Program-made: the position numbers and the translations under genes
Shown here: piece by piece, positions 17,653 to 25,416 of the stretch
How the letters are laid out: each line of letters starts with the position of its first letter
Position numbering within the stretch: position 1 is the first letter of the stretch
The notes under the pieces: model-generated
The model's database searches: none
What the model saw: the letters and a program-made list of their open reading frames with translations, nothing else
Told to the model about the DNA's origin: nothing
Source: Cecembia rubra
GTDB lineage: Bacteria > Bacteroidota > Bacteroidia > Cytophagales > Cyclobacteriaceae
NCBI RefSeq assembly: GCF_003014575.1
Contig: NZ_PYGF01000001.1
Span: 124,001 to 188,000 of the forward strand
Direction of reading: 5' to 3'
Length of the DNA stretch: 64,000 bases

Positions 17653-20600
17653 CCATCAATCGCACCATACAGGAATTGAAATATTGAAGGAAACCAAAAA
17701 GACGCTGCAGACGGATGCCATCAATCGCACCATACAGGAATTGAAATATATTTATAATCATGTAATGTTAACAGGGAATAACCCATCAATCGCACCATAC
17801 AGGAATTGAAATGGGATTATAACCGATAAAACACAAGTGGATGGATGGCCATCAATCGCACCATACAGGAATTGAAATTAACTGAGCCATCTGTTTCCAA
17901 TGCTAAGTTCAACCATCAATCGCACCATACAGGAATTGAAATAGATCTGTCAGTCCTCCTGTGGATGGGCCTGGGCCACCATCAATCGCACCATACAGGA
18001 ATTGAAATCTGATATCCTGTAATCTCTCCACCCTGATGTCCTCTCCATCAATCGCACCATACAGGAATTGAAATAATTTTTCTTAATGGCCGGCTGATCA
18101 CCGAGCGGCCCATCAATCGCACCATACAGGAATTGAAATAGGCTTCTGAATCTCCATTCTTTTACCGCCCTTGTCCCATCAATCGCACCATACAGGAATT
18201 GAAATATGGTAATAGATGTTCCCTCCTCTATCCATATAACACCATCAATCGCACCATACAGGAATTGAAATTTTCTTAGGATTCTTACAGATTTAGCCAT
18301 GGCCTCAACCATCAATCGCACCATACAGGAATTGAAATCCGTAAACCAGGTGCAGACATTCCCGAACCCCCCAACCATCAATCGCACCATACAGGAATTG
18401 AAATGTTCAAAAAAGGAAACCTCTATGTGCCAACCGAAGCCATCAATCGCACCATACAGGAATTGAAATACGATTTCAGCCGGGCTGTTTTTTTCAGAAT
18501 CAACCCATCAATCGCACCATACAGGAATTGAAATCTGCATTTGCCGCAATTGAAAAACTTCAAGATGAAACCATCAATCGCACCATACAGGAATTGAAAT
18601 TCCAGATACCTATCGATCTGTTGCTCAATTTGCCGGCCATCAATCGCACCATACAGGAATTGAAATTGTGTACTTTTTAATCAGATCCTTAACAGCGGAA
18701 ACCATCAATCGCACCATACAGGAATTGAAATCCGATGGGTACTACTATGTGGTTGGCACTGACATCACCATCAATCGCACCATACAGGAATTGAAATAAG
18801 AAAAATTCGCCCAATCGCTGATTTTCGGAAATACCATCAATCGCACCATACAGGAATTGAAATTTGAAAAAGCAAACATTAAATTAAAAGAAGATGAGCC
18901 ATCAATCGCACCATACAGGAATTGAAATTGGCATTAAGCATTTCCTTAAGAGCAATTTCGGACCATCAATCGCACCATACAGGAATTGAAATATCTTAGA
19001 GGCAATTTGTAAAGAACGCCCCCCTTTCCATCAATCGCACCATACAGGAATTGAAATATCGGAGATGGCGCAACAACAATAACTGACTTAACCATCAATC
19101 GCACCATACAGGAATTGAAATAAAGGATATATGACCCTTGATAAGTCAGACTTACAGACCATCAATCGCACCATACAGGAATTGAAATAGGTATGCAGAA
19201 TACAAGTTTCTAAACAACCGTGTCCATCAATCGCACCATACAGGAATTGAAATAAGCCAAAATACAGTGATATTACGGCAAATGGATTGCCATCAATCGC
19301 ACCATACAGGAATTGAAATACTTTTATTGATGCTTCTTTCAATGATAAGTACTTTCCATCAATCGCACCATACAGGAATTGAAATAGAATTGGATAATGA
19401 GATAAAACAATTGGATGCAACCATCAATCGCACCATACAGGAATTGAAATTGCTTTGCAACCGATCCAGCAGATGCCGAAGCAAAACCATCAATCGCACC
19501 ATACAGGAATTGAAATAAGCAAAGAAGAATCTGGAAGCTGCCGATGCGATTAACCATCAATCGCACCATACAGGAATTGAAATTTGTTTTGTTTTCAGCA
19601 GTCTGCCCGGTTTGGGCTTCCCATCAATCGCACCATACAGGAATTGAAATACAACATCCAGCGCATCGGATTTATCATCATAACTTCCATCAATCGCACC
19701 ATACAGGAATTGAAATTACACAATCAATGCCCCCGTACTATTTATAGTACACCATCAATCGCACCATACAGGAATTGAAATGAAACGCTGTAGAGAAAAA
19801 GTAATGACAAACCTAGACCATCAATCGCACCATACAGGAATTGAAATAAGCATCATGCAAGGTGCTTTCATCCCTCTTGGTGCCATCAATCGCACCATAC
19901 AGGAATTGAAATATAATCGGATACCTGCTTCATTCTTACAAGACAAGCCCATCAATCGCACCATACAGGAATTGAAATAATCGTATTAAAATAAATTACA
20001 AGTCAAGATATTTTGCCATCAATCGCACCATACAGGAATTGAAATACACCTAAGATAAACATATTCGAAATCGGGGAACAGCCATCAATCGCACCATACA
20101 GGAATTGAAATTTGTCCACAATATTCCAGATCCTGCCCTTGTAGCCCCATCAATCGCACCATACAGGAATTGAAATAGTTTTTCCCGCACCTCTTCCACT
20201 TTGGCCCTCCCGCCATCAATCGCACCATACAGGAATTGAAATGCAATAGCGGCATTCAGTATGCCAATTGATGCCCAGCCATCAATCGCACCATACAGGA
20301 ATTGAAATAGGTCAACCATGACATTGAGATCAATTTTCTAATTGCCATCAATCGCACCATACAGGAATTGAAATATGGCTAAGCTTATTTACATTAAAGT
20401 CATAGAGGACGCCATCAATCGCACCATACAGGAATTGAAATATGGCATGAACCAATTGTCCAAGGGAGGAAAAGAACCATCAATCGCACCATACAGGAAT
20501 TGAAATATCTTTAATCTTAACCCTTATTTTTTTTGTCTTTACCATCAATCGCACCATACAGGAATTGAAATGGAGTTAAGGGATGCGGCAAAACAGGCCG

Positions 20601-23600
20601 GATTGGGCCTTCAATCGCACCATACAGGAATTGAAATAATATTGCCCTTGAAGGTTTCCTCGATTTTCCCGAAACCATCAATCGCACCATACAGGAATTG
20701 AAATCCAGCTTTAGACATTCTTACCCCAACCCAAGATGACCATCAATCGCACCATACAGGAATTGAAATTTTTTGTGTTTAGGGATTTTTCCTTCTTTCA
20801 TGATCCATCAATCGCACCATACAGGAATTGAAATAGGGTAAACAATGGAGGGGTTGCGGCTGCAACAAGCCATCAATCGCACCATACAGGAATTGAAATG
20901 TTAATCTCATCTTCGCCTCCTCTTTTTGCCGGAACCATCAATCGCACCATACAGGAATTGAAATCAGTAATAGGAAAACTGCTTTCCAGAACCTACACTT
21001 ACCATCAATCGCACCATACAGGAATTGAAATTGAACATTACCTTATTGGCGAAATTTGATTTTCCTGTCCATCAATCGCACCATACAGGAATTGAAATTA
21101 CATTTTTTCCGACCATTTTCGGCTTTTTCGGTTCCCATCAATCGCACCATACAGGAATTGAAATACTCCCACCCTATTTTGAACCTAGGATCCTTTGCTC
21201 CATCAATCGCACCATACAGGAATTGAAATGTAGTCCATGGCTAATAAGAAGCTTTTAAAGGAAATCCATCAATCGCACCATACAGGAATTGAAATTTATC
21301 ACTTAATAATGTTTGGAGTCCAGAACGCCCAGCCATCAATCGCACCATACAGGAATTGAAATATAACCTGGAGTGCATTTTCATAACTTCCGATTGCCCA
21401 TCAATCGCACCATACAGGAATTGAAATAGTGATTTAGATAATTATCCGTTTCACCCGTAAGCTCCATCAATCGCACCATACAGGAATTGAAATTAAGCAA
21501 AGCCACCACTATAATCACTAACACAACTCCATCAATCGCACCATACAGGAATTGAAATACGTAAGGGCGAAGTTTACGGTACTTCCCGAACCATCCATCA
21601 ATCGCACCATACAGGAATTGAAATATAATCGGCGAATCCCTTTCCCAACTTGGCCAGAAACCATCAATCGCACCATACAGGAATTGAAATATCTTTTTCT
21701 GGAAAAAGCCGCTTAGAGCGTCGATGCCATCAATCGCACCATACAGGAATTGAAATATGCCAAATCAGGAAATAGAACTCAGCACAATAAGCCATCAATC
21801 GCACCATACAGGAATTGAAATTATATTACAACACCCCGGCGGAACTCGAAGCTCTGGCCATCAATCGCACCATACAGGAATTGAAATAACTTATCCAATT
21901 TTTCCAACTGATCTATAGGAAACCATCAATCGCACCATACAGGAATTGAAATGCCTCGGTTGCACGATTGTCATTTCCACGCGTTCTACCATCAATCGCA
22001 CCATACAGGAATTGAAATTATATTTCGTCCTTGTTATAAACGTGCCTTACATATCCATCAATCGCACCATACAGGAATTGAAATGTGAAAATCTGAACCT
22101 GTCTTTTTTGCGTCTCGATACCATCAATCGCACCATACAGGAATTGAAATCCGCATAATGTTGATGAATGGCATATTGGAGATGCCCATCAATCGCACCA
22201 TACAGGAATTGAAATTATTTATTAAGGCCGTGTTAAGGTCCGAAGCGGTTTCCATCAATCGCACCATACAGGAATTGAAATACGCCATGACTATATTACC
22301 GGAATGGGCGAAGGGGCCCATCAATCGCACCATACAGGAATTGAAATAAGAAAAGACAGGCCCCAACAGTTGGGAAATAATTAAACCATCAATCGCACCA
22401 TACAGGAATTGAAATTATTTAAGGTCCTGGATCTTGTTTTCATTCTCAATGCCATCAATCGCACCATACAGGAATTGAAATATGTATTTTGTTGATGAAA
22501 ATGGTAATAGAATAGCCCATCAATCGCACCATACAGGAATTGAAATATGTAAGGCCTCAGTTTACGGTACTTTCCGAACCATCCATCAATCGCACCATAC
22601 AGGAATTGAAATAAGAGTTTTATAAATTGGAGATAATTAGACTTGGTCCATCAATCGCACCATACAGGAATTGAAATATCCCTATGGCCCCAACGACCTT
22701 GCCGGAGCACTGACCATCAATCGCACCATACAGGAATTGAAATTTGATAAACTTCCGTAAAGCAAGATTTTTTGGAGTAGCCATCAATCGCACCATACAG
22801 GAATTGAAATAAGACAAACAATGGATATTAATAATAATTCAAGTGTCCATCAATCGCACCATACAGGAATTGAAATGTGCATATAGCTTATACAGGAGGA
22901 ATGCATCAGGACCATCAATCGCACCATACAGGAATTGAAATCCTGTTCAGAATCAAGCATATTCATCTGGTTTTTTGCCATCAATCGCACCATACAGGAA
23001 TTGAAATAGTACGCCAGCTAATAGATTTGCTTTACCCGGAGCACCATCAATCGCACCATACAGGAATTGAAATTTTTGCACCCGGTTAATATCGCTTATT
23101 TTAGCTACACCATCAATCGCACCATACAGGAATTGAAATTTGGCAAGTACCGCAAGGGTGCCAATAGAGCCTACTCCATCAATCGCACCATACAGGAATT
23201 GAAATTTTACTATAATAGATTATACAAGTGTTGAAGCTATTCCATCAATCGCACCATACAGGAATTGAAATGCACTTGGGAAATAAGCGCCGAGGAGCTT
23301 ATAAAACCATCAATCGCACCATACAGGAATTGAAATTAAGTTCGTTTTCTGTCTCCGCCTTGTCGCTTAGGCCATCAATCGCACCATACAGGAATTGAAA
23401 TTATATTTTGCCGTGCGTTGCAAATACATCTAAGCGCCCATCAATCGCACCATACAGGAATTGAAATTCGGTTAGGTTGAATGCCCGTATTACAGGCAGC
23501 TCTCCATCAATCGCACCATACAGGAATTGAAATAAGCTTTCGCTAGCTTCTTTTGCTTTTTCGATTTTTCCATCAATCGCACCATACAGGAATTGAAATC

Positions 23601-24190
23601 ATAATCCTCGTCCACAACCGAATATGTTTCATCGGCCATCAATCGCACCATACAGGAATTGAAATACCAATATCTGCCTACCAACAAGGAACCCCACGTC
23701 CATCAATCGCACCATACAGGAATTGAAATAGTCTTTTGCCTGCATTTTGTCTGATCTTTCGGTTTCCATCAATCGCACCATACAGGAATTGAAATTGGAA
23801 TGGCAGTTGCAGGATTGGGAACAATAGGTGCCCATCAATCGCACCATACAGGAATTGAAATAACTTACAAAAGATAAATCCATAAATCAAGGCAAACCAT
23901 CAATCGCGCCATACAGGAATTGAAATTGGATTATACCTTTTGCGAAATTAACATAGGTGTTTCCATCAATCGCACCATACAGGAATTGAAATGAGTCATA
24001 TATCCTTTTGGACTGATCGGGACCGAATCCATCAATCGCACCATACAGGAATTGAAATGTTTCTTCCAGGGGTTAACATAGTGTCGCCCACTCTCCATCA
24101 ATCGCAACATACAGGAATTGAAATTTTTTAGCACCTGACCCTCCGTAAATTTCTCCTACTCCATCAATCGCACCATACAGGAATTGAAAT
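17653..24190 (+). CRISPR. Type I-B CRISPR array, 100 repeats and 99 spacers
   Basis: The repeat is 30 bp, beginning CCATCAATCGCACC and ending CAGGAATTGAAAT. Counting repeat starts by hand gives 100 copies at 64-68 bp intervals, so spacers are 34-38 bp. Three repeats carry substitutions: at 20608 (CCTTC for CCATC), 23897 (CGCGCC) and 24095 (CGCAACA). Two of the three are within the last five repeats, as expected for the old, leader-distal end. The final repeat (24161-24190) is intact. The 3' end ATTGAAAT fits a type I-B 5' handle. Transcription is expected on the plus strand from the leader next to cas2. Long apparent ORFs across the array are translations of the repeat and are not genes. Confidence 0.99.
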
Positions 24191-24730
24191 TTATTTTGAT
24201 TTATATATTAATAATGAGCATGGCCATTAACTACAAAAAATTATTTTAAATCACTAAATTCTAGATTTAAAACTTCTTCATTTAATTCCATTTTAAAATA
24301 ATACGGAGTCCACATTTAATAGATCATTCTTATTAAGTGCTAAAACCTCATTTTCTAATCTCCAGAAATCCGAATTATATCTTAATACCGTTAAAATTAT
24401 TTCGAATGTTATTGACTTTGATCTATAATTTTGAAAATTATTATTGAAAAATTAAATGTCATTTTACTAAACCTAAAGGCATGGAATTTCAAATTTCTCC
24501 TATCTTATTTAACAAATTTAATCTTGTTTTTTTGTGTCAGATTTTTGTACTAGAAACAAAATCAGGAGAAGTATTTTCCAACCTTTTGCTCCTAGTTTAA
24601 TTTATTAAATGCTTTTCCAAAGCAACAATCCATTTAAAATAACCTTTAAGAAAAATTTAAAAAAGGGGGGGGGAGCTTACAGCTGTTTTGTTCTTTTTTA
24701 TCGATTGTCCTATCAAGTTTTGACAGAAGA
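24191..24730. other. AT-rich stretch after the array
   Basis: No intact gene is seen. It contains a probable decayed ORF on the minus strand (24241-24450, listed separately) and a run of nine Gs at 24665-24673 followed by AGCTTACAGCT. No terminator for the array could be assigned with confidence. Confidence 0.5.
24241..24450 (-). pseudogene. Decayed ORF remnant downstream of the CRISPR array
   Basis: Reading the minus strand gives about 45 protein-like codons (containing YRSKSITFEIIL and DFWRLENEVLALNKND), then a stop in that frame; the next frame continues without a gap as TPYYFKMELNEEVLNLEFSDLK up to a TAA at 24241-24243. One single-base shift near 24305 would join the two into a continuous C-terminal segment. 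No start codon in a suitable place was found. The family is not recognised. The evidence is composition and smooth continuation only. Confidence 0.35.
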
Positions 24731-24762
24731 AAAATAAAAAAGCCTAATGTTATACATTAGGC
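24731..24762 (-). terminator. Rho-independent terminator of tRNA-Ser
   Basis: On the minus strand GCCTAATGT-ATA-ACATTAGGC forms a perfect 9-bp stem followed by TTTTTTATTTTT. It begins about 10 bp after the tRNA 3' end and is oriented to end that transcript. Confidence 0.85.
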
Positions 24763-24772
24763 CCTGATTCCG

Positions 24773-24861
24773 CAGAGAGTGGGGGATTCGAACCCCCGGT
24801 ACGGAATTACCCGTACGACAGTTTAGCAAACTGCTGGTTTAAGCCACTCACCCAACTCTCT
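24773..24861 (-). tRNA. tRNA-Ser (anticodon GCT)
   Basis: An 89-nt serine tRNA on the minus strand. The acceptor stem AGAGAGT pairs perfectly with ACTCTCT, followed by discriminator G. The anticodon arm is CAGTT-TGCTAA-ACTG with anticodon GCT, reading AGC/AGU. The long variable arm GTACGGGTAATTCCGTAC is typical of serine tRNAs, and the T arm GGGGGTTCGAATCCCCC is perfect. CCA is not encoded. Two broken copies of its 5' half lie directly upstream in the direction of transcription. Confidence 0.95.
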
Positions 24862-24877
24862 ATAATTTTATATTCTG

Positions 24878-25005
24878 CCCGTACGACAGTTTATCCGCCG
24901 CGGCGGATGGTTTAAGCCACTCACCCAACTCTCTATAATTTTATATTCTGCCCGTACGACAGTTTATCCGCCGAGACGGATGGTTTAAGCCATTCACCCA
25001 ACGCT
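24878..25005 (-). repeat. Two tandem partial tRNA-Ser copies (5' halves)
   Basis: Two copies of the tRNA-Ser 5' half lie upstream of the gene at 73-bp spacing: 24878-24934 and 24951-25005. Each has the acceptor 5' strand, D arm and the start of the variable arm (GTACGGG), but the T arm and acceptor 3' strand are missing, so neither can fold as a tRNA. In both, the first part of the anticodon arm is replaced by a palindrome: ATCCGCCGCGGCGGAT in the nearer copy and ATCCGTCTCGGCGGAT in the farther one. The linker TATAATTTTATATTCTG is shared between copies. The far copy also has a degraded acceptor. Confidence 0.85.
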
Positions 25006-25416
25006 ATAACTTGATGCAAATATAAATCAATATTGAAGAATTAAACAAAATGTGCCAGCCAATTAATCAACTATTTTTAACAAATTATTGGAAATCCTTG
25101 TAGTTCAATAAGAAATATTTGTGGAGTTTTCAAAGAAAAGAATTAGGAGTGATAAGGATAGTCTCCTGCTGAAATGTAAAATTTAATTTTTTCTTTTTTG
25201 TTCAATCCCAAGCCAATATTTGAAATTCAATTTAGCTCATTCAAATGGAAAAAAATGATATTCGAAATTTTTAACATAAAACATCTTTATGTAAAGAATA
25301 AAATTCTGACAAAAAATGATATTCAATAATTTATTTTATTGTTCCTAATTGTTATTTTTACAGCTTCTGGTCAAGGTCAATTGATCGGAATCACCTAATA
25401 TTGCGAACACAATAGG
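25006..25416. other. AT-rich intergenic region
   Basis: About 410 bp with no recognisable gene or RNA. It should hold the promoter of the tRNA-Ser unit (minus strand) and of the PAS-domain gene (plus strand). A short GGTCAAGGTCAATTGATC segment shortly before the PAS gene contains overlapping direct and inverted TCAA/TTGA elements; no regulator can be named. Confidence 0.4.

Follow-up and report, generated by a model that had tools for sequence, protein, structure and literature searches.

The 64,000-nucleotide stretch of DNA analysed here (the window) holds two tandem partial copies of a tRNA-Ser(GCU) gene, located immediately upstream of the intact gene on the minus strand, in which a palindrome stands in the place of a short inverted repeat. 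In the preferred reading, to which a probability of about 0.55 is assigned, these copies are non-functional, the inverted repeat has been exchanged for a mobile palindrome of the REP-like type, and the array represents one case of a process that is recurrent in the Cyclobacteriaceae and scattered in other Bacteroidota.

Point change, duplication and integration are generally taken to be the main ways in which essential RNA genes evolve. In several of these genes, and in different genera, broken copies have undergone the same kind of internal change, in which a small fold-back becomes a larger one, and this pattern points to an undescribed joint working of tiny mobile hairpins and gene duplication. 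Small mobile palindromes and partial tRNA duplications are both known, and their combination is taken as new because no description of it was found in the literature searched: the texts covered—mostly outside subscription journals, and accessible in part—did not describe the exchange of an inverted repeat for a palindrome in tandem copies of stable-RNA genes. A text search of the literature with five of the palindrome strings retrieved one unrelated match only.

Organization of the tRNA-Ser(GCU) locus

The locus reads, along the minus strand, from a probable promoter through nine bases into the first unit (A), the second unit (B), the intact tRNA-Ser(GCU) and a terminator-like site, with unit A starting 9 nt past the promoter-like TATATTTG. 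The genome of the window is referred to as G000, and its features are as follows:

25017-25050, minus strand: probable promoter, with TTTTG at 25046-25050, 21 nt, and TATATTTG at 25017-25024
24935-25007, minus strand: unit A, promoter-proximal and decayed (sequence and repeat search)
24982-25007, minus strand: tRNA 5' segment of unit A, 23 of 26 nt matching the intact gene
24966-24981, minus strand: hairpin of unit A, the imperfect palindrome ATCCGTCTCGGCGGAT, at the same site as in unit B
24951-24965, minus strand: AAACTGTCGTACGGG retained in unit A
24935-24950, minus strand: spacer of unit A
24862-24934, minus strand: unit B, tRNA-proximal (sequence and repeat search)
24909-24934, minus strand: tRNA 5' segment of unit B, 26 of 26 nt identical to the intact gene
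24893-24908, minus strand: hairpin of unit B, the perfect 16-bp palindrome ATCCGCCGCGGCGGAT in place of AGCAGTTTGCT
24878-24892, minus strand: tRNA sequence AAACTGTCGTACGGG retained in unit B
24862-24877, minus strand: spacer of unit B
24772-24861, minus strand: intact tRNA-Ser(GCU) (ARAGORN; Rfam, 55 bits; sequence)
24739-24765, minus strand: intrinsic-terminator-like site 3' of the intact tRNA-Ser (1 found versus 0.7 expected in shuffled sequences)

The combination of TTTTG and TATATTTG is presumably a Bacteroidota-type promoter motif. A scan of 24600-25200 for sigma-70-type promoters, with a model that does not cover Bacteroidota promoters, gave no match.

Each 73-nt unit is composed of 26 nt of tRNA 5' sequence, the 16-nt hairpin, the 15 nt of AAACTGTCGTACGGG and a 16-nt AT-rich spacer. 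The repeat search reported 73-nt repeats at 24835-24907 and 24908-24980, spaced at 73 bp and 97% identical, and found the tRNA 5' segment three times at the locus. With the intact tRNA as query, BLAST recovered copy B (E = 2e-9) and copy A (E = 1e-6) from the window, while neither ARAGORN nor Rfam, at its gathering threshold, scored the half copies as tRNA, the intact gene being the only one reported in the window. The pattern ATCCGNNNNGGCGGAT, with two mismatches or fewer, has nine matches in the window versus 1.4 expected; four of them fall on the two array sites, and the other five, each with one or two mismatches, lie outside the array.

The initial annotation had described two 5' halves, spaced at 73 bp upstream of the intact gene and on its strand, with a 16-bp palindrome in place of the same part of the anticodon arm in both. 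Their number, spacing and orientation stand. The copies are, however, more than simple 5' halves, as each also keeps AAACTGTCGTACGGG, which comprises the 3' strand of the anticodon arm and the 5' strand of the variable arm. Since this segment is retained in each copy, just the internal 11 nt have been replaced (9 without the shared end bases A and T). Likewise, the palindrome is perfect in unit B but imperfect in unit A, where two of the eight position pairs of ATCCGTCTCGGCGGAT are mismatched as DNA and the RNA folds into a 6-bp hairpin with one G-U pair. The hairpin site and the spacer are common to both units, in agreement with the earlier proposal that the palindrome was in place before the local tandem duplication.

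Comparison with a sister genome (G001, same genus) clarifies the starting state. In G001, a near-identical promoter and the same nine bases run directly into an intact tRNA-Ser, without units, so unit A occupies the ancestral start position of the gene; the intact copy of G000 lies 146 bp further down. Because no second GCU gene was found in G000 among 39 ARAGORN calls in 29 regions around its other tRNA matches, tRNA-Ser(GCU) is probably transcribed through the array. To judge from the sequence, it is plausible that the half copies and the intact tRNA-Ser belong to one precursor transcript.

Downstream of the tRNA-Ser of G001 (L041:2935-2980), a TTCGATTCGCCGCGGCGAATCGAATCCCCC palindrome lies in a possible T-loop fragment, and it is the sole match to that palindrome pattern in this genome; this 3' tRNA-Ser-like piece is suggestive only. 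On the plus strand of the window, an array with a period of approximately 66 bp and 100 regular repeats ending in ATACAGGAATTGAAAT (17667-24190) is evidently a long CRISPR array, the end of which is found about 550 bp from the tRNA-Ser terminator.

Swapped copies in other genomes and other RNA genes

Two pattern searches combined recovered tRNA-Ser copies swapped at the same site in 12 genomes of the family Cyclobacteriaceae, belonging to 8 genera, one of them decayed. A pattern that accepts any insert of 12–42 nt at the site matched 10 of 390 family genomes, one of which, G003, was set aside as a chance match (its sequence is identical to L071). A search blind to the insert, based on two tandem D-arm segments, matched 10 of 334 family genomes in 7 of 76 genera; the site bears a strong hairpin in nine of these ten genomes and is decayed in the other (G130). 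Counted by match, 14 of the 15 have a strong hairpin and one is decayed, and the original AGCAGTTTGCT is present in the first unit of none of them. Different palindromes are found at this one site, namely ATCCGCCGCGGCGGAT, ATTCGCCGCGGCGAAT, ATCCGCCTCAGGCGGAT, ATCCGCCTGTGGCGAGAT, ATCCCGATAGCTATCGGGGT, AGTCCCGTACATACGGGACT, AATCCCGTATGTACGGGACT, AATCCCGATTGATCGGGACT and AACCACGCCTAAGGCGTGGCT. When 14 distinct Ser inserts were folded, 11 gave hairpins of 6–8 pairs and three were weak or unfolded, one copy each in G025 (copy 1), G226 (copy 1) and G130.

A further search, of named genomes, returned 22 records, which upon inspection resolved into 12 genuine arrays (L061, L063, L065-L067, L069, L073, L075, L077, L078, L081 and L082, with L069 and L075 representing one assembly), nine chance matches (L062, L064, L068, L070-L072, L076, L079 and L080) and one assembly gap (L074). 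The carriers include Algoriphagus hitonicola, with three units, A. marincola, Belliella pelovolcani, B. aquatica, B. alkalica and Cecembia lonarensis, together with a Cyclobacteriaceae assembly, two Bacteroidales, one Bacteroidetes and one Lewinella assembly. In the Bacteroidales and Lewinella carriers, the swap is at the same site and involves other palindromes. The units lie upstream of the intact tRNA-Ser in most carriers, the exceptions being a piece in B. alkalica and a nearly full copy in Lewinella, both downstream. The same spacers are found in G000 and C. lonarensis (G147), so at least these two arrays share ancestry, and their palindromes differ by a paired change. Across the phylum, the tandem-half pattern matched one of 392 genomes, G000 itself, and the D-arm-swap pattern matched none of 392; tandem swapped arrays are thus rare outside the family. 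A tandem arrangement of another kind was observed in G011 (L039:2278-3290), where four tRNA-Ser(GCU) genes, apparently intact and without palindromes, alternate with tRNA-Pro-like genes.

The phenomenon extends to other stable-RNA genes. Additional half-copies of the kind that the initial annotation considered worth looking for do exist in G000, where swapped copies adjoin tRNA-Val(TAC), Val(GAC), Met, Arg(ACG) and Leu(CAA), in addition to Ser(GCU). The least secure of these are the short Leu(CAA) and Arg(ACG) pieces, and the tandem pieces of tRNA-Ser(GGA), devoid of this hairpin type, are not counted as a swap. All nine listed swapped hairpins of G000 fit T(N)CCG...CGG(N)A. The clearest case is the Val(TAC) copy, which aligns, upstream flank included, to the intact tRNA-Val of G001. 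The swapped Val(GAC) copy is common to both genomes, which agree in its stem but not in its loop.

In G107, tandem half copies accompany tRNA-Lys and tRNA-Ala, and tRNA-Val(GAC) is flanked by a half copy on its upstream side and by a full-length copy on its downstream side; in all of them, GCTCAGC (or GCTCAGT) is replaced by TCCCGATAGCTATCGGGA or TCCCGATAGTTATCGGGA, while TACCGATAGCTATCGGTA occurs in two more full-length tRNA-Lys copies. The tRNA-Met copies of G288, as read from their sequence, have several arms swapped. Finally, A. marincola and G130 hold incomplete 5S-like copies (L099:1480-1640 and L104:62-360; tandem in G130) in which palindromes have taken the place of several loops: ATCCGCCG(C/T)GGCGGAT stands where AACAGAGCAGTT would be, and another hairpin is swapped as well. 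The intact 5S of A. marincola scores 88.9 bits with Rfam, while its broken copies, assigned to 5S by reading of the sequence, have no Rfam match at the gathering score.

The replaced stretch in tRNA-Ser, -Lys, -Ala and the anticodon region of -Met is a short inverted repeat of the DNA and not a stem of the RNA (AGCA-GTT-TGCT in tRNA-Ser), whereas in the Val copies of G000 it is the anticodon arm. Substrings of equal length with as many or more end pairs are infrequent in the same gene: 4 of 82 for Ser, 1 of 69 for Lys, 2 of 69 for Ala, 1 of 60 for Val(TAC), 1 of 61 for Val(GAC) of G000 and 3 of 67 for Met; Val(GAC) of G107 qualifies only when G-T pairs are counted (7 of 70). The replaced segments thus tend to be inverted repeats, a tendency that is suggestive and not blind, because the segment ends were chosen by the authors, the D-arm sites of Lys, Ala and Val are one motif, and 5S falls outside the test.

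Mobile palindromes and the proposed origin of the arrays

The view of the palindromes as scars of mobile elements, one of those offered in the initial annotation, is supported in part: palindromes of a similar kind are scattered through some relatives, and present or absent between two congeneric genomes. Palindromes of the TCCCG type (TCCCGNTN{0,6}ANCGGGA), compared with the reversed pattern as a control, number 51 versus 3 in G107, 26 versus 2 in G002 and 24 versus 0 in G288, and are weakly dispersed in G000 (8 versus 3). The four genomes to which the Bacteroidales, Bacteroidetes and Lewinella loci belong have 1 versus 2, 8 versus 0, 14 versus 0 and 3 versus 7, with no excess in two of them (1 versus 2 and 3 versus 7). 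Five of eight palindrome sites of G107 could be aligned with the congeneric G002 (the remaining three gave partial or multi-copy matches and were left unaligned); three of these five are clean insertions of 21–35 bp, another (L132) replaces a few bases, and the last (L133) is complex. The clean insertions replace no inverted repeat, so an exchange rule for all dispersed palindromes is rejected, and the rule is visible only in RNA genes.

The 16-nt ATCCGCC-type palindrome of the Ser array has no match outside the Ser array in G000 or G288, with a pattern that misses the 14-nt core; this core, TCCGCCGCGGCGGA, is also found in the swapped Met pieces of both genomes. The search for the palindrome elsewhere in the genome, as envisaged in the initial annotation, thus locates the 16-nt form in the array alone and its core at a tRNA-Met piece too.

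The palindromes resemble REPs and other small palindromic repeats in being short, GC-rich and, in some relatives, dispersed and mobile. They differ from them in that, within partial RNA-gene copies, they occupy the site of a short inverted repeat, and in that many dispersed copies of the 16-nt Ser palindrome, as would be expected of a REP, are not found in G000, where it is confined to the array apart from the core at tRNA-Met. REPs are described with a GTAG/CGTC tag in the accessible part of PMC3733652; in the RNA-gene copies, the flanks of the hairpins are fixed by the gene itself. Palindromes inside RNA genes are also known from Rickettsia, where the accessible text of PMC2229807 places the 105–146-bp RPEs within tmRNA and M1 RNA genes, and a comparable location is seen in G288, where a palindrome lies in a putative RNase P RNA. 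The palindromes described here are nonetheless shorter (16–35 bp) and mark broken tandem copies, which that text does not describe for RPEs. The G288 palindrome, TCCCGATAGCTATCGGGA, is located on C29 (L140), and the RNase P RNA gene around it was recognized by reading of the sequence.

According to the preferred model of mobile-hairpin scars, a short inverted repeat of a stable-RNA gene would be the entry point of a hairpin, the intact copy would come from a duplicate of the gene, and the unit formed by the 5' part, the hairpin and the spacer would then be copied or lost through unequal recombination, for which the 5' end of the intact gene offers an identical partner. Mobile palindromes would be the donors of the Ser hairpin, the exchange would occur on DNA hairpins, and recombination would have changed the copy number of the array. 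The exchange may be started by a GIY-YIG or Y1 nuclease. The presence of Y1 transposases (PF01797, with RAYT and IS200 types counted together; seven matches in G000) does not discriminate, as all 17 genomes tested have them, whether they carry arrays or not. If a defined enzyme were responsible, the arrays would reveal a new means by which tiny selfish DNA persists next to essential genes; if it were replication, tRNA leaders would naturally record the mutations that hairpins drive.

The most decayed or truncated copy is the promoter-proximal one in four of seven multi-copy family arrays (G000, G226, G073 and G025) and the tRNA-proximal one in none of the seven. G288 and G063 lack this gradient, and G107 departs from it, its middle copy having changed most; the L073 array, with three copies on a contig without the intact gene, was left out of the count. 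The stems are also subject to paired changes that preserve them, such as C-G to T-A between Ser arrays and, likewise, between the Val copies of G000 and G002. Such changes could reflect selection on the hairpin, and thus function. Palindromes can also stay symmetrical via template switching during replication, which would explain the paired changes without selection.

Nuclease genes and competing explanations

One alternative is a homing mechanism. A small, free-standing GIY-YIG nuclease would cut stable-RNA genes at short dyads, repair by recombination would duplicate the segment, and the cut copy would receive an uncuttable palindrome, the Ser array being formed in trans. In G000, five of the six small GIY-YIG matches are found no more than 400 bp downstream of a tRNA gene, distributed over three loci. 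Two of these, Met and Val(TAC), hold two tandem nuclease copies each, in the order tRNA, nuclease ORF, swapped tRNA piece, copied terminator and second nuclease copy (GIY-YIG loci L146 on C9, at tRNA-Val, and L147 on C1, at tRNA-Met). The Met order of tRNA, terminator, GIY-YIG gene, swapped tRNA piece and terminator is common to G000 and G002, a related gene follows tRNA-Met in G288 with swapped copies upstream, and GIY-YIG-like ORFs follow both the tRNA-Ala with swapped copies in G107 and the tRNA cluster of G025 that begins with the Ser array. A precedent is provided by SegB, a GIY-YIG nuclease of phage T6 reported, in the accessible part of PMC13096335, to drive the tandem amplification of tRNA segments. 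The likeness lies in the tandem tRNA pieces accompanied by a GIY-YIG gene at two G000 loci; the Ser array, however, has no such gene and resides in a bacterial chromosome, and a palindrome swap is not described for SegB in that part of the source. Moreover, GIY-YIG (PF01541) has no match in the window, so a local GIY-YIG cause at the Ser array is not supported, and such genes are present at just two of the six swapped tRNA loci of G000. The Asp locus has a degenerate GIY-YIG gene, with two stop codons and below the Pfam cut-off, next to an unswapped tRNA, and the sixth small gene (C3:39065) is away from tRNAs. Homing is regarded as an unlikely origin of the array. The same degree of doubt attaches to a bolder proposal, a dedicated DNA hairpin-exchange process in Bacteroidota in which short inverted repeats of tRNA and 5S genes would be recognised, perhaps by the small GIY-YIG proteins encoded at some of these tRNA genes, one copy would get the palindrome while the duplicate stays intact, and swapped copies would escape further attack; the Ser array would then be a minimal, ORF-less selfish form.

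It is somewhat less probable that the array serves as a functional leader, in which the half copies and hairpins would regulate or aid the maturation of tRNA-Ser(GCU), for instance by competition for the 3' acceptor strand or as RNase III sites. The array probably lies inside the precursor of the only GCU gene found, and in the predicted precursor fold the 3' acceptor strand pairs with the 5' strand of copy B with a probability of about 0.74, against about 0.22 for its own partner, in a model that ignores tertiary structure, proteins and co-transcriptional order. The persistence of the stems through paired changes, and the constant stem of the Val(GAC) copy, would also fit a function. Against it stand the decay of the promoter-proximal copy in four of seven multi-copy family arrays, the loss or weakening of the hairpin in three copies (G226 copy 1, G130 and G025 copy 1), and the lack of an insert-blind match in 324 of 334 family genomes. 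Folding, the one approach applied to this question, gave no evidence of the tRNA-like fragments or of the capture of maturation enzymes that the initial annotation had suggested. A plain tandem duplication relic, with an unrelated palindrome and unique to this strain, is very improbable: the rarity of the arrays outside the family would suit it, but the same-site hairpin recurs in the 12 family genomes and in other orders. The initial annotation had associated a simple relic with the lack of any related arrangement elsewhere; related arrays occur in many genomes, which refutes the uniqueness of this one. Least credible of all, and close to negligible, is an origin as remnants of integrase or phage attachment, which the initial annotation had also put forward. 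tRNA genes are common integration targets, at which partial copies are left behind next to the intact gene, as stated in the accessible part of PMC9897764, and this resembles the present locus. No element was found in the viral, phage and plasmid searches, though, and the fragments are 5' parts with an internal swap, arranged as short tandem units, in a phenomenon that also affects 5S rRNA. The array pattern has no match in viral contigs, BLAST against phages gave none, and the best five of ten plasmid matches cover only the intact-tRNA part of the query; a tRNA segment shared with an integrative element was not found among these viral, phage and plasmid matches, and a phage or plasmid origin lacks support.

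Some of these structures have practical consequences. Swapped pseudo-tRNAs can be mistaken for genes by annotation tools, as in the case of the swapped tRNA-Val copy at L146:1336-1413, which ARAGORN and Rfam (34 bits) both accept as a tRNA even though the end of the nuclease gene extends into the 5' strand of its acceptor stem. Two assemblies also break within arrays, the contigs of the Cyclobacteriaceae and Bacteroidetes assemblies ending inside them. Finally, intergenic clusters of multiple hairpins, in which ATTCGCCGCGGCGAAT is accompanied by GCAGTCTGAAGACTGC-like repeats, recur across genomes (L100, L101 and L111).
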